Shown in pieces: positions 1,544-16,646 of a DNA stretch of 21,326 bases; position 1 is the first letter of the stretch, and every line of letters starts with the position of its first letter. Location: positions 1 through 21,326 of the IMG/VR virus record IMGVR_UViG_3300047548_000736; one strand, given 5' to 3'. The notes under the pieces are model-generated. The model did not search any database. It was not told the DNA's origin and saw nothing but the letters and a program-made list of their open reading frames with translations. The position numbers and the translations under genes were made by a program. The DNA comes from a virus.

Positions 1544-2862
1544 TTACTATATTTAAATCTTCCTCCAAAATTATTTAATTCATATGAAGAACCATATTGT
1601 GTAATTGTATCAATAATCTTTTTCCTAACATTTTCAACTTCAGAAATTGCACTTCTATCATAATAAGCACTAGTGTTTATTTCAACATAGAGATATTTGA
1701 GGTCAACAATCTCTGGTTTAATTCCTGCAATTGTATATTGCTTTAATTTATTTTTAATTTCTTCTTTAGTTATTTTTGAAATATATTTTCCATTTCTTGG
1801 TTTAATTGATATAAAAACTTTTCCATATTGTGGTGGATCCAATTCATCACCACCATAAGCAGTAACAGATTCAACATTGGGAAATATTGATGGAATTAAT
1901 CCTTTATAGTCATTTGCAGTAACTGCCCTAAATTGTGATGAATATACTCTAGGTGCAATATATTTAATGGAATCTATTTTTTCAATGTCATCTCCATTTT
2001 CTGATGGAATATTTGTTGTAATTAAAGAGATTCCATTGGTAATTTTATTACTGTTATTATCAACTAAAATTCCACTAAAGGTAAAATTCGCAGATCCATT
2101 TGCTTGTTTTCCATTTGTAGTAATATAACTTACATAAACAGAACTTCCAGAAATTGGTCTTCTTCCAAATATATTATCTCCGAATAAAATCTGATATTTC
2201 TCATCTTCTACTTCTTGAACTAAGAAAATTTTAGAATTTTTATTAACATTTAAGATATTATCAAACTTTGTATATTCTTCATTAGTAATATCAGTAACAA
2301 AAACCCTTATTAACTCGGTATCAACGTCAGCATTTGGAATAATAAACTTTTGATTTGGTTGATTATTATCTATAATAAAACTTTTTGTTAAGAATCTTCC
2401 TTCGTAAATTGAAATATTATTAAATCTCGCAATTCCCTGATTATCTACAGGAACCGTAATGTCTTCTGGGATAGAAAATACAAAATTTCCTGTTTCAAGA
2501 TTTCCTAAACATACAACACCAGACCTTAATGTAACTGACTTTACATCTAAAAATCCTTCAGTATCTACTGTAAAACTAATTTGTGCTCTAGATGCTCTTT
2601 TTGATCTAGGAACATATCCAATATTTCTTGCAAGTGAAACTACATTTTCTCGTAAAGTTGCACTATCCAAAAATGATTCATTCACTGCCATATTGGTGTT
2701 ATAGGCAGTTATATAAGAGTTATAGGCAAGAATATCAATTAATACAGAAAAATTAGAACCTTCATAATCAAAGTCAGTAAATTCTGTATTGGTTCTTAGA
2801 TAATCTTTTATTTGAGATCTAATGTCCTCAAAATCTAGATTAGTGAATTGATTTATTGCCAT
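1531..2862 (-). CDS. gp6: Baseplate wedge subunit gp6 (N-terminal 443 residues; frameshifted)
   Basis: The product resembles the baseplate wedge protein gp6 (J-like family), which joins gp25 and gp53 in the wedge and controls sheath contraction. The N-terminus (MAINQFTNLDFEDIRSQIKD, then VLIDILAYNSYITAYNTNMAVNESFLDSA split over residues 45-70) is the typical gp6/J opening. The middle contains the FGDNIFGRRP and YSSQFRAVTANDYKG segments common in this family. The ATG overlaps the gp25 stop by one base (TAATG), so the two are translationally coupled. The frame ends early at TAA 1531-1533 after GGRFKYSKLIT. The remaining third of the protein lies in the next frame (989-1543). A loss of one base, or of one copy of an ATTG pair, would explain the break. 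Confidence 0.9.
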   Translation of the reverse strand: MAINQFTNLDFEDIRSQIKDYLRTNTEFTDFDYEGSNFSVLIDILAYNSYITAYNTNMAVNESFLDSATLRENVVSLARNIGYVPRSKRASRAQISFTVDTEGFLDVKSVTLRSGVVCLGNLETGNFVFSIPEDITVPVDNQGIARFNNISIYEGRFLTKSFIIDNNQPNQKFIIPNADVDTELIRVFVTDITNEEYTKFDNILNVNKNSKIFLVQEVEDEKYQILFGDNIFGRRPISGSSVYVSYITTNGKQANGSANFTFSGILVDNNSNKITNGISLITTNIPSENGDDIEKIDSIKYIAPRVYSSQFRAVTANDYKGLIPSIFPNVESVTAYGGDELDPPQYGKVFISIKPRNGKYISKITKEEIKNKLKQYTIAGIKPEIVDLKYLYVEINTSAYYDRSAISEVENVRKKIIDTITQYGSSYELNNFGGRFKYSKLIT

Positions 2863-3263
2863 TATGCTCTAGTTGGTTGTAAGATAAACTCTATATTTTG
2901 TCTTGGGAATCCCTCACCAACAATATCATAGACAATGTTTATATTTAATTCATATAAATCAGGATCATCACTAATATTAATTTGTCTAACCTTTATTCTT
3001 GGTTCAAAATTATTAAGTAATGTTTTAATTTCATCTTCCAATACAATAGATATCCCAATTGTATTAAGTTCAAATAGCGAATCATTAATTGTTGAACCAA
3101 TTAATGAATTAAAAAATCTCTCACCTACAACTGTTTTTACTAAATTAGTGACAGATTTTTTAATTGCATCTTCATTTTTAATTGGTAAAATATCATTTGT
3201 TACAGGATGCCTAGCAAAAGACAAACTAATGTCCTTAAATGCTCTTGAAATCCTTGCTGCCAT
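2862..3263 (-). CDS. gp25: Baseplate wedge subunit gp25 (GPW/gp25 family)
   Basis: This 133-residue protein matches the small GPW/gp25 wedge family, the sheath-initiating wedge component of contractile tails. Family features visible are the N-terminal ISLSFARHPVTNDI segment, the central KSVTNLVKTVVGERFFNSLIGS helix region (residues about 37-57) and the C-terminal LLNNFEPRIKVRQINIS strand region. The length is normal for the family (T4 gp25 is 132). It lies directly upstream of gp6 and its stop overlaps the gp6 start. There is no clear Shine-Dalgarno before ATG 3263. An AT-rich TATATAAAATA about 20 bases upstream could be a degenerate late promoter. Confidence 0.93.
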   Translation of the reverse strand: MAARISRAFKDISLSFARHPVTNDILPIKNEDAIKKSVTNLVKTVVGERFFNSLIGSTINDSLFELNTIGISIVLEDEIKTLLNNFEPRIKVRQINISDDPDLYELNINIVYDIVGEGFPRQNIEFILQPTRA

Positions 3264-3573: not shown

Positions 3574-3915
3574 TTAACGATGCAAATATCTGAGGTTATA
3601 ATTATCTGAATTTAAATATTTTAACAATTCCAATGCTATTAATTTGGGATTTCCTGGTCCACAAGTATAAACATCAATAGCAACACATCCATTTTCGGGC
3701 CAAGTATGGCACGATACATGACTCTCTGACAGTGCTATAACTATTGTACAACCTTGTGGGTAGAAACAGTGCTGAAACGTGTTTAAAATGGTCATTCCTG
3801 CACGTTCAATGCCTTGTTTCATAACTCCTTCAAGAGTTACCGCATCATTGAGTAGAGAGTATTCTACCCCGTATACCTCCAACAGGAGGTGATTCCCCAT
3901 TGAAAATCTATCCAA
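3574..3915 (-). CDS. speD: S-adenosylmethionine decarboxylase proenzyme (SpeD), phage-borne
   Basis: SpeD makes decarboxylated S-adenosylmethionine, the aminopropyl donor for spermidine. The bacterial class 1B signature is clear. The cleavage and pyruvoyl site is Ser65 in the segment LSESHVSCHTWPENG, with catalytic His70 and, in DVYTCGPGNP, catalytic Cys85. The 113-residue length fits prokaryotic SpeD. An exceptional AGGAGGA (3925-3931) lies nine bases before a TTG codon at 3915, whereas the first ATG (3900, residue 6) is 24 bases away, so I prefer the TTG start. SpeD is a known auxiliary metabolic gene of marine cyanomyoviruses. Phage polyamines may help DNA packaging or host physiology, but that is inference. 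Confidence 0.93.
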   Translation of the reverse strand: MDRFSMGNHLLLEVYGVEYSLLNDAVTLEGVMKQGIERAGMTILNTFQHCFYPQGCTIVIALSESHVSCHTWPENGCVAIDVYTCGPGNPKLIALELLKYLNSDNYNLRYLHR

Positions 3916-6150: not shown

Positions 6151-6362
6151 GTATCTCTTGTGCCCCAAATCTCATAAGTTCTCCGAGGGTAATTCCGAGG
6201 TATTCTAACTCTTCCTTATGCGTGGTTCTCGTGCTCAGAGAATTTTTTTTTCTCAAAGACAATTTCAATGGCAAAATCATACTTTTATAGATTAGGGTAG
6301 TTATGCGTTTTTACTTTTAGGGGGGCATCGGTTCTTTATAAGAATACCCAACAATCGCAAAT

Positions 6363-6650
6363 CACTGTCGATTAGAATTAAACAACACTGTTTTATTCTT
6401 ATAACGAACAATAACGAATACTAATTAAACATAACTGGGTATAAAGAATAAGAAACTATTACCAGGGTATTAGTGATAACGAAGGGGCACACATAACGAA
6501 TTAAGTGTCACTGTGTGATTAGAATATAAAACCCTACCCCAGGTATGACTATAGGACGAATCCTCCGAGTTGTCAACACACAAGGACGAAACATAAGGGA
6601 CTATACAACACTGTGTGATTCTTATAGTAAACCCTACCCAGGGTATCATA
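6363..6650. repeat. CACTGT-ATT direct repeats
   Basis: CACTGTGTGATT occurs at 6509-6520 and exactly 100 bases later at 6609-6620. Each copy is followed by ATA- or TTATA-type sequence and ACCCTACCC (6531-6539 and 6631-6639). Weaker copies start near 6363 (CACTGTCGATTAGAAT) and 6386 (CACTGTTTTATTCTT). Confidence 0.6.
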
Positions 6651-6652
6651 CC

Positions 6653-6714
6653 TGTGGAAAACTCTTATACTTTTTCCACAACCCTGTGGAAAACTCTGTG
6701 GAAACTGTGGAAAA
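6653..6714. repeat. Cluster of DnaA-box-like sequences, left group
   Basis: TGTGGAAAA (the complement of TTTTCCACA) occurs at 6653-6661, 6685-6693 and 6706-6714, with a one-mismatch copy at 6697-6705 and an inverted copy at 6672-6680. TTTTCCACA fits the DnaA-box consensus TTWTNCACA and is the form reported for cyanobacterial DnaA boxes. Copies 6672-6693 form a palindrome with ACCC between the arms. Confidence 0.7.
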
Positions 6715-6804
6715 CTTTATATCAACCCCTGTGCAATTCTTATAAGTCCTAGGTGTTTATAACGAATTCCCTCTCCTCCCACCCTATAAATCTAGCACGA
6801 ATGG

Positions 6805-6883
6805 CATAAGACTCATAAGACGAATAGACAGTTCTCAGAGTGTCCTTAGACGAATGAATCCACAGAGAATTATGAGTCTTATG
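6805..6883. repeat. 14-bp perfect inverted repeat
   Basis: CATAAGACTCATAA (6805-6818) is repeated inverted as TTATGAGTCTTATG (6870-6883) with 51 bases between the arms. A related GAGTCTCATAAGACG lies at 6906-6920. Confidence 0.6.
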
Positions 6884-7032
6884 GACGAACAAATAAAAAT
6901 CCTCCGAGTCTCATAAGACGTATGAGTTTCTTTAAGACCCATTGCTATAACTCATCATACACGAACTTGACATAAGAATCAAAACGTGCTGGGGAGTTAT
7001 AGTGTGCCAGTTTGGGAGGTGGAAAAATGCTC

Positions 7033-7061
7033 TTGACTTTTCTGGGGTTTTATGATACAAT
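7033..7061 (+). promoter_or_regulatory. Plus-strand sigma70 promoter inside the non-coding region
   Basis: TTGACT (7033-7038), a 17-base spacer and TACAAT (7056-7061) differ from consensus by one base in each box. It points away from every gene of this window, toward the second TTTTCCACA palindrome and the T10 tract. No plus-strand gene follows, so the product would be a non-coding or primer RNA. Confidence 0.65.
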
Positions 7062-7175
7062 GCACGCTTAGACGGCAATAAAATCACATAATAACAGGGT
7101 ATAAGAGAAGGATTACGAGACAATAAAGAAGGTTTTCCAGACGATTAGAAGAACTAAAAGAGGTATAACACATAG

Positions 7176-7197
7176 TTTTCCACAGGGTTGTGGAAAA
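7176..7197. repeat. DnaA-box palindrome, right copy
   Basis: TTTTCCACA, GGGT and TGTGGAAAA form a palindrome that is the exact reverse complement of 6672-6693. With flanks (7175-7198 against 6671-6694) the match is 24 bases. The two copies lie about 500 bp apart in opposite orientation. Confidence 0.75.
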
Positions 7198-7402
7198 ACA
7201 ACAAAACACACATATATGTTTTTTAATACATTTTTTTTTTAATTATCTTTTTTAACGATAATACATTAAAATAGATTATTTTACCTTATTCATCTCTGTT
7301 TCTACTGTATAATACATACCAATCAACACATAAGATAAACAAACTGATAAGGTAATAGAGTTGAATATACTAGGAAGAATCGGTATGGATTGCTTCATAG
7401 TA

Positions 7403-15362: not shown

Positions 15363-15395
15363 AAATCTCTATGTGGGACACATAGAGATTTATGC
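15359..15395. repeat. 17-bp perfect inverted repeat over a stop and a start codon
   Basis: GCATAAATCTCTATGTG and CACATAGAGATTTATGC are perfectly complementary around GGA. The stem includes the TAA of the helicase gene (15390-15392) and the ATG of the next gene (15360-15362). The apical TATGTGGGACACATA recurs with one change at 8781-8795 and at 11981-11995. Confidence 0.75.
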
Positions 15396-16625
15396 AGCAA
15401 GCACTTCACCCTTCACAAAGATGGTATCAACCACAGTTTGAAGTTGACGGGCAATACGATCACCATAGTTATTGTTGACAGGAATAGTGATAGTACCAAA
15501 GGGTTTCTTATAGAAAGCAAACTCACCTGCTTTCATCTTACCTTCTGCGATTGCTTGTCGGTCTTCTTTGTGCATACGGATAACACGTCCAACAGTCTGT
15601 GCCATTTCAATCAGAGGAAGATTGCGAAGCATAATGCAATGAGTCAGACCCTGCACATTCATACCCTCAGACAGGATGCTGTAGTGAAACACAATGAACT
15701 TCTTGTCTGCATCAGCACCAAACTCAGTCATCTTCTGGAAGAATACTTCACGGGAGACTTTCTGTTTGTCAATATAAGCACCGTGCTTAGAAGTGATGTG
15801 CATAATGGTATAACCCATATCATTGAGTTGTTGCAGCAAATCACTCTCAGTAAACATTGCCCAGATTACTTTGGTGCTAGGAGCAGCAACAAGAACTTTA
15901 GGAGCATCACAATCAGAAATCTCTGACAGAATACCTACAATGTTTTCTGCATCTACAAAAGGTGCATTTTCTTTGGTGCGAATGGTTTGTGCTTCATAAG
16001 GCACAACTTTAGGAGGAATGATACTACCTGCCTCAATCAGTTCTTGTGCAGGAATACTGATGATGTTGTTGCCATAAACATCAGTATTGTTCATAGACTC
16101 CTTGCTGTTATTGAACTTCGGAGTTGCAGTGAAGAAATAAGCATTGTCTGCAACTGCTGAAGTGTGAGCAATACCGACAAAGTTAGAAGGTTTCACACAG
16201 TGGTGTGCTTCATCAAAATACACCACATCAATGTTAATGTCTGCTTCATTCACCCGACCAATCGAATTGTAAGTGGTGAAGATGAATTGATGCTTACCAC
16301 TTCCGATTGCAGTGTCATTATATTCTGCAATGACTGCTGGACGTGTAGAGGATTGATGATGAGTTTCACCACTGTGAACGTGCATATAAGCAATGTTTTG
16401 CTCTTTGAGATATTCTTCAAACTCCGAACAGAGTTGATTTGCAAGCAGAATACGAGGGGCAACAACAACAAACGTCATCGGTTCTTTTGCGTTAAGAACA
16501 CGTTGACGGGCATCTTCCATCATCACAACAGTCTTACCACCACCAGTAGGAATATAGACAGAACCCCTGATTGCTTTTTGCACAGCATCAAGAGCACGTT
16601 GTTGATACGGAAGAAGAGTCAGCAT
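15390..16625 (-). CDS. SF2 DEAH-box helicase
   Basis: The 411-residue protein starts at ATG 16625 (the upstream TTG is less likely). It has the full superfamily 2 motif series: PYQQRA (residues 6-11), Walker A PTGGGKT (26-32), APRILLANQL (motif Ia), DEAH (138-141), FTATP (165-169), SEGMNVQGL (motif V), and QTVGRVIR (343-350, motif VI arginine finger). It lacks a large extra domain and is of the compact RecA-pair kind, like phage UvsW/RIG-I-like helicases. It may unwind recombination or replication intermediates; true UvsW is usually a separate gene in these phages, so I do not use that name. It is first behind cassette H and linked to the next gene through a palindrome. Confidence 0.9.
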   Translation of the reverse strand: MLTLLPYQQRALDAVQKAIRGSVYIPTGGGKTVVMMEDARQRVLNAKEPMTFVVVAPRILLANQLCSEFEEYLKEQNIAYMHVHSGETHHQSSTRPAVIAEYNDTAIGSGKHQFIFTTYNSIGRVNEADINIDVVYFDEAHHCVKPSNFVGIAHTSAVADNAYFFTATPKFNNSKESMNNTDVYGNNIISIPAQELIEAGSIIPPKVVPYEAQTIRTKENAPFVDAENIVGILSEISDCDAPKVLVAAPSTKVIWAMFTESDLLQQLNDMGYTIMHITSKHGAYIDKQKVSREVFFQKMTEFGADADKKFIVFHYSILSEGMNVQGLTHCIMLRNLPLIEMAQTVGRVIRMHKEDRQAIAEGKMKAGEFAFYKKPFGTITIPVNNNYGDRIARQLQTVVDTIFVKGEVLAA

Positions 16626-16646
16626 CAATAGGTCAGTTCAATCGTT

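Follow-up and report, generated by a model that had tools for sequence, protein, structure and literature searches.

The window analyzed here, that is, the whole stretch of 21,326 nucleotides, encodes gp6, gp25, SpeD, a PHROG_1574 glycosyltransferase, a DNA helicase and an HNH nuclease. The closest cultured homologues of gp6, gp25, the helicase and the glycosyltransferase are those of Kyanoviridae, and the glycosyltransferase exhibits 78% identity to its counterpart in DSL-LC03. Because its proteins match cultured Kyanoviridae in this way, the window is, as judged from sequence, part of a T4-like cyanophage. The gene for SpeD (S-adenosylmethionine decarboxylase; 3574-3915) adjoins gp25, an arrangement also seen in S-SRM01. 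Since the record is only a 21-kb fragment, we carried out genome-wide tests on relatives instead.

Between minus-strand genes lies a region crossed only by short open reading frames, none of which is a credible gene. An earlier note on this DNA had described a gene-free stretch of about 550 bp at this place; its non-coding character held up, whereas its extent proved to be about 1.1 kb. The features of the region and its two landmarks are as follows.

2862..3263, minus strand: gp25 baseplate wedge gene, a positional landmark about 3.4-3.9 kb from the boxes
6281..7402, no strand: non-coding region of about 1.1 kb, holding the whole set of elements described below
6548..6576, minus strand: second predicted sigma70-type promoter, P_B (TTGACA, 17 nt, TATAGT), in the direction of the genes and 100-160 bp from the proximal array
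6653..6714: proximal array (motif search) of one near-box and four exact boxes at 6653-6661 (minus), 6672-6680 (plus), 6685-6693 (minus) and 6706-6714 (minus)
6672..6693, no strand: 22-nt palindrome within the proximal array, two converging boxes, TTTTCCACA-ACCC-TGTGGAAAA
6697-6705, minus strand: near-box with a single mismatch, GTTTCCACA (motif search)
6809-6825, 6839-6855 and 6907-6923, plus strand: three AGACTCATAAGACGAAT-like repeats, possible iterons (repeat search)
7003..7012, plus strand: the TGTGCCAGTT element, situated upstream of P_A and over-represented among related regions
7033..7061, plus strand: predicted sigma70-type promoter P_A (TTGACT, 17-nt spacer, TACAAT), conserved, reading against the genes into the A+T element
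7062..7080, plus strand: conserved block directly after the -10 hexamer, GCACGCTTAGACGGCAATA (pattern GCnnGCTWAGACnnCAA; conservation and motif counts)
7176..7197: distal pair, a 22-nt palindrome of two exact boxes, 7176-7184 (plus) and 7189-7197 (minus), incomplete in some relatives
7203..7282, no strand: the 80 bp with the highest A+T content in the window (87.5%), by composition a candidate DNA unwinding element
7208..7240, plus strand: A+T element, conserved and oriented, ...TATGTTTTTTAATACATTT..., on the strand of P_A and downstream of it
15390..16628, minus strand: SF2-type helicase gene, not clearly T4 UvsW, the landmark on the other side

Six Exact DnaA Boxes in a Non-coding Region

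The six exact boxes are the only copies of TTTTCCACA or TGTGGAAAA in the window, in which 0.62 would be expected and the reversed 9-mer, used as a control, does not occur. In 2,000 second-order shuffles of the interval 6280-7400 the mean number of boxes was 0.04 and the maximum two, so that six were never reached. The region thus contains a cluster of host-consensus DnaA boxes, as oriC-type origins do, and the six exact boxes and the single-mismatch box reported in the earlier note are all where it had placed them. Likewise borne out was its description of a palindrome that recurs as its exact reverse complement over 24 bases (6671-6694 and 7175-7198); when extended, the match spans 30 nt at 97%.

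The two sub-clusters are unequal, as became evident when nine close relatives were aligned over the region. In the proximal array all four exact boxes were perfect in nine out of nine, whereas the distal pair was complete only in some (L071, L088 and L058), and we therefore rejected the idea that the distal pair, poorly kept as it is, is an essential part. The absence of the boxes from close relatives had been named as an observation that would count against their significance; the opposite was found. Other well-kept blocks were 7040-7079 (P_A and the block that follows it; 96-98%), 7200-7239 (the A+T element; 88-99%), 6880-6899 and 6760-6810. When all boxes were scored together as a mask, the effect was moderate (0.91 for box columns versus 0.78, with 11 of 349 slid masks equaling it), because the distal pair dilutes the box columns.

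Host DnaA as the Candidate Reader of the Boxes

The 9-mer TTTTCCACA is the cyanobacterial DnaA box, established in Cyanothece by footprinting of DnaA domain IV (PMC4674748). Domain IV is encoded in 40 of 41 Cyanobiaceae genomes, and the stretch beside dnaN in this family carries zero to three exact boxes together with degenerate ones. The proposal that the boxes are of host type is thus upheld, and from the identity of the box we infer that host DnaA binds to the phage copies. We rejected a phage-encoded DnaA as the reader, as the PF00308 domain was absent from 17 phage records.

Neighboring boxes lie 12 and 21-22 bp apart as direct pairs, 13 and 23-25 bp apart as converging pairs and 13 and 19 bp apart as diverging pairs, the 13-bp converging class being inflated by palindrome-based selection; loci selected through the glycosyltransferase also yield 12 and 21. 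These spacings fall on helical steps of DNA, which fits a cooperative DnaA complex.

Could the palindrome instead be bound as a dimer by some other phage or host protein, its match to the DnaA box being coincidental? In keeping with this, the 13-bp converging spacing dominates the palindrome-selected loci (with the inflation just mentioned), the 22-nt palindrome was absent from all 300 genomes of the host family Cyanobiaceae that were searched, and the phage boxes show an additional preference in their flanks, AG-TTTTCCACA-GGTTT. Yet what is conserved coincides exactly with the known 9-mer, and the direct repeats, the diverging pairs and the boxes of S-RIM44, Syn1 and S-H38, which occur without any palindrome, fit binding to single sites. 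We consider a different reader very improbable. The absence of the palindrome from the host family also led us to reject the idea that the region is a copy of the host oriC.

Occurrence of the Cluster in Cyanophages and Other Viruses

At least 120 viral contigs carry the palindrome TTTTCCACA-N4-TGTGGAAAA, as compared to eight for a scrambled palindrome, and among the matches listed 90 of the 120 contigs, versus none of the eight controls, had clear Kyanoviridae homologues. A nucleotide search with the region returned no direct match among cultured phages, whereas the short array alone did find them. In eight cultured cyanomyoviruses (S-PM2, S-RIM32, S-RIM44, DSL-LC03, S-SZBM1, Syn9, S-H38 and S-MS29) there was one cluster per genome, as judged by the best 150-bp window, and it exceeded both shuffled sequences and every other place in the genome. 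It is located at 19.2 kb in S-PM2, 52.6 kb in Syn9 and 58.9 kb in S-RIM44. Six of these eight genomes had been found through the array sequence itself; S-SZBM1 and Syn9 had not. In all eight the cluster lies 4.9-8.1 kb upstream of gp25-gp6, and the search for the same cluster at the same locus that the earlier note had called for thus came out in its favor.

Among the genomes examined, no cluster was present in S-CAM9, S-T4, S-SRM01, S-CRM01, P-SSM4, P-HM2 or T4, and among relatives selected for the glycosyltransferase (fetched stretches with at least 4 kb of upstream sequence) it was present in 6 of 25. The boxes are therefore common but not universal in T4-like cyanophages.

Three observations concern other viruses. 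First, in several GC-richer contigs (L005, L019, L036, L045, L076, L092, L100, L113 and L118) the palindrome is centered on GGCC (TTTTCCACAGGCCTGTGGAAAA); most of these exhibit little or no Kyanoviridae homology, and a different group of viruses may rely on the same signal. Second, gut phage and Microviridae records (MT837840, MG945383, MG945642, MG945423 and others) match the box array, several of them in unannotated stretches; small phages that infect other hosts may have DnaA-box arrays as well. Third, a 284-kb viral contig (G004, the contig of L041) departs from the rule of one cluster in having two arrays, at 29317-29434 and 239066-239129, about 210 kb apart; these could be a pair of origins or the product of a joined assembly.

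A Promoter and an A+T Element Accompany the Boxes

The A+T maximum of the window abuts the distal boxes; an A+T-rich unwinding element next to the boxes is likewise a mark of oriC-type origins. In S-RIM32 and S-RIM44, too, A+T content peaks no more than about 250 bp from a box group. DSL-LC03 and Syn9 are only weakly enriched in A+T around their boxes. Within 73 distinct box regions the enriched motifs were sigma70 -35 hexamers, TGTGCCAGTT and CTTATGAGTC-type repeats. The block that follows P_A was present in 30 of the 73 (1.1 expected; 0.6% of background stretches). For the A+T element, as TATGTTTTTTAA, the count was 24 (3.1 expected; 1.7% of background). Both in the window (6809-6923) and in DSL-LC03 (about 80.4-80.5 kb), AGACTCATAAGAC / CTTATGAGTC-type repeats are over-represented next to the boxes. 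A recurrent promoter-like unit, GGGGTTGACTTTTGCCCC...CATACTACCTAAGTCAAC, was also observed about 85-140 bp from the boxes in six loci (L114, L004, L072, L095, L002 and L063).

To avoid circularity, we searched all viral contigs with each motif alone and counted boxes within 1 kb. The P_A block identified 37 contigs, and 28 of the 32 distinct ones had at least two DnaA boxes within that distance (none for the reversed 9-mer). The A+T element was located downstream on the strand of P_A in 32 of the 37 and never on the other strand, at 94-164 nt in all but one contig. When the A+T element alone was used, 105 distinct contigs were recovered; two or more boxes lay within 1 kb in 58 of them, as against 3 for the reversed control. 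In the group to which the window belongs the array is followed after about 350 bp by P_A and after about 150 bp more by the A+T element, and S-RIM32 has P_A first, then the A+T element and then the boxes. A transcript from P_A would be expected to begin at about 7068 on the plus strand of the window, and its antisense equivalent in S-RIM32 near 60.88 kb. The block or the element runs antiparallel to the genes in the annotated genomes of S-RIM32, S-PM2, DSL-LC03, S-H38 and S-SZBM1. As judged by sequence, conservation, order, orientation and position, then, the array, P_A with its start block (7033-7080) and the A+T element (7208-7240) form one module.

At about 44.7-45.9 kb, upstream of gp25, S-CAM9 (KU686204) has a P_A-like block and an A+T-rich non-coding stretch. 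Boxes are absent there, and GCACGCA-type repeats stand in their place; the region may be of the same kind and be bound by a different protein. Because S-CAM9 retains the P_A-like block without boxes and some cyanophages are boxless, the boxes may be a replaceable part.

No gene on its own strand lies ahead of P_A. We considered a structured RNA as its product and rejected it: there was no credible Rfam match, and such an RNA is disfavored because conservation from the P_A block to the distal boxes is among the lowest in the region (7120-7160 being poorly conserved in the nine relatives).

In other bacteria DnaA also works as a transcription factor (PMC7198777), and two sigma70-type promoters flank the array. 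Array-bound host DnaA might therefore regulate the outward-reading P_A and P_B and so couple early transcription to the level of DnaA. Such a switch seems distinctly unlikely, as P_A has no gene to serve on its strand, the array is about 350 bp upstream of P_A in the window group, which is far for direct control, and P_B is less conserved than the array in the nine relatives.

The boxes might alternatively serve as a decoy, like datA, with replicating phage genomes, whose boxes would outnumber and outclass those of the host origin, soaking up DnaA and stopping new rounds of host replication. Consistent with this idea, the phage arrays have three to eight exact boxes, more than the zero to three, plus degenerate ones, beside host dnaN, and phage copy number would multiply them. 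A sponge, however, has no need of one conserved locus, or of an accompanying promoter and A+T element in fixed order and orientation, and we regard titration as unlikely to be the function of the region.

A Candidate Replication Origin

We favor the interpretation, to which we assign a probability of roughly 0.6, that the region is a replication origin of T4-like cyanophages in which a promoter and unwinding element resembling oriF are joined to binding by host DnaA. Host DnaA would bind the phased array, an expectation that derives from the known cyanobacterial box. Meanwhile, host RNA polymerase would transcribe from P_A, against the genes, into the A+T element about 95-165 nt downstream; here the promoter, the order and the orientation rest on conservation, and it is transcription that we infer. 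DnaA and transcription would together open the A+T element, the short P_A RNA could prime leading-strand synthesis, as at T4 oriF and oriG, and the phage's own replisome would load at the opened element.

We favor this hybrid because P_A and the A+T element are origin-like, P_A is without a gene and the array would add opening of the bacterial type. The host-type box, the presence of DnaA in the host family but not in the phage records, the one conserved locus, the perfect array, the helical phasing, the A+T maxima near the boxes and the non-circular motif test all count for an origin. Counting against it are the six boxless cyanophages, the S-CAM9 block without boxes, the variable distal pair and the weak A+T enrichment in DSL-LC03 and Syn9. 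Moreover, DnaA is not obviously needed, because the phages carry T4-type replication genes. Cumulative GC skew showed no minimum at the cluster in the eight phages and lends no support to an origin; we dropped it as a marker, one-sided coding being a confounding factor. The earlier note had offered an origin or a decoy: the origin has gained because promoter and A+T element travel with the boxes, the skew lends it no help, the boxless relatives tell against it, and the decoy keeps the small share given above.

More tentatively, and at somewhat short of even odds, we propose that this hybrid is a class of origin widespread in T4-like cyanophages, in which the DnaA array and the promoter RNA act together at the A+T element. 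A lytic T4-like phage would then depend for its first round of replication on the host initiator and thereby on the cell cycle, light or growth state of the host.

In the open literature we came across no account of DnaA boxes or a replication origin in T4-like cyanophages (most subscription papers were outside the search), and the word "origin" is absent from a comparison of 26 genomes (PMC3037559). What appears to be new here is thus a candidate phage origin that combines T4-like anatomy with boxes for host DnaA. The candidate is compact, precisely located and present in standard laboratory phages (S-PM2, Syn9, Syn1 and S-RIM44), and hence directly testable, and the presence of boxes in some phages and their absence from others provides a natural comparison. 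If the region is an origin, infection by abundant aquatic viruses would be tied to the switch that initiates host replication, and a T4-like phage would be seen to add host DnaA to a promoter-driven origin.

Comparison with Known Systems

The region shares with the cyanobacterial oriC, which lies beside dnaN, a cluster of TTTTCCACA boxes and nearby A+T-rich DNA. Unlike oriC, the phage site has no dnaN or dnaA gene, and its boxes are perfect, closely phased and accompanied by the 22-nt palindrome.

Foreign replicons that borrow host DnaA through a few boxes include P1 oriR, pSC101 and RK2 oriV. The cyanophage site likewise has few host DnaA boxes, but no adjoining Rep gene was identified and the replicon is a large lytic T4-like phage. 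The titration locus datA of E. coli is a single compact cluster of strong DnaA boxes; the cyanophage cluster, likewise compact and strong, adds a conserved promoter and A+T element.

Within T4 itself, oriE has phased 12-nt repeats (iterons) that resemble the phased cyanophage boxes, although they are not described as DnaA boxes in a review of T4 replication that makes no mention of DnaA (PMC3016281). The closest parallel in layout is with oriF (ori(uvsY)) and oriG (ori(34)), at which, as at 7033-7061 and 7208-7240 in the window, a promoter is followed just downstream by an A+T-rich unwinding element. Moreover, oriF is annotated beside gene 25, and the cyanophage cluster is also near gp25. We nevertheless rejected identity with the oriF locus by descent and treat the likeness as analogy only: oriF lies beside both uvsY and gene 25, whereas cyanophage uvsY lies elsewhere, tens of kilobases away, and the neighboring helicase is not clearly UvsW. 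The T4 origins use a MotA middle promoter, whereas the cyanophage promoter looks sigma70-type and has an array of DnaA boxes attached. Thus, the working principle would be that of the T4 origins, a promoter plus an unwinding element, with a host DnaA array added.
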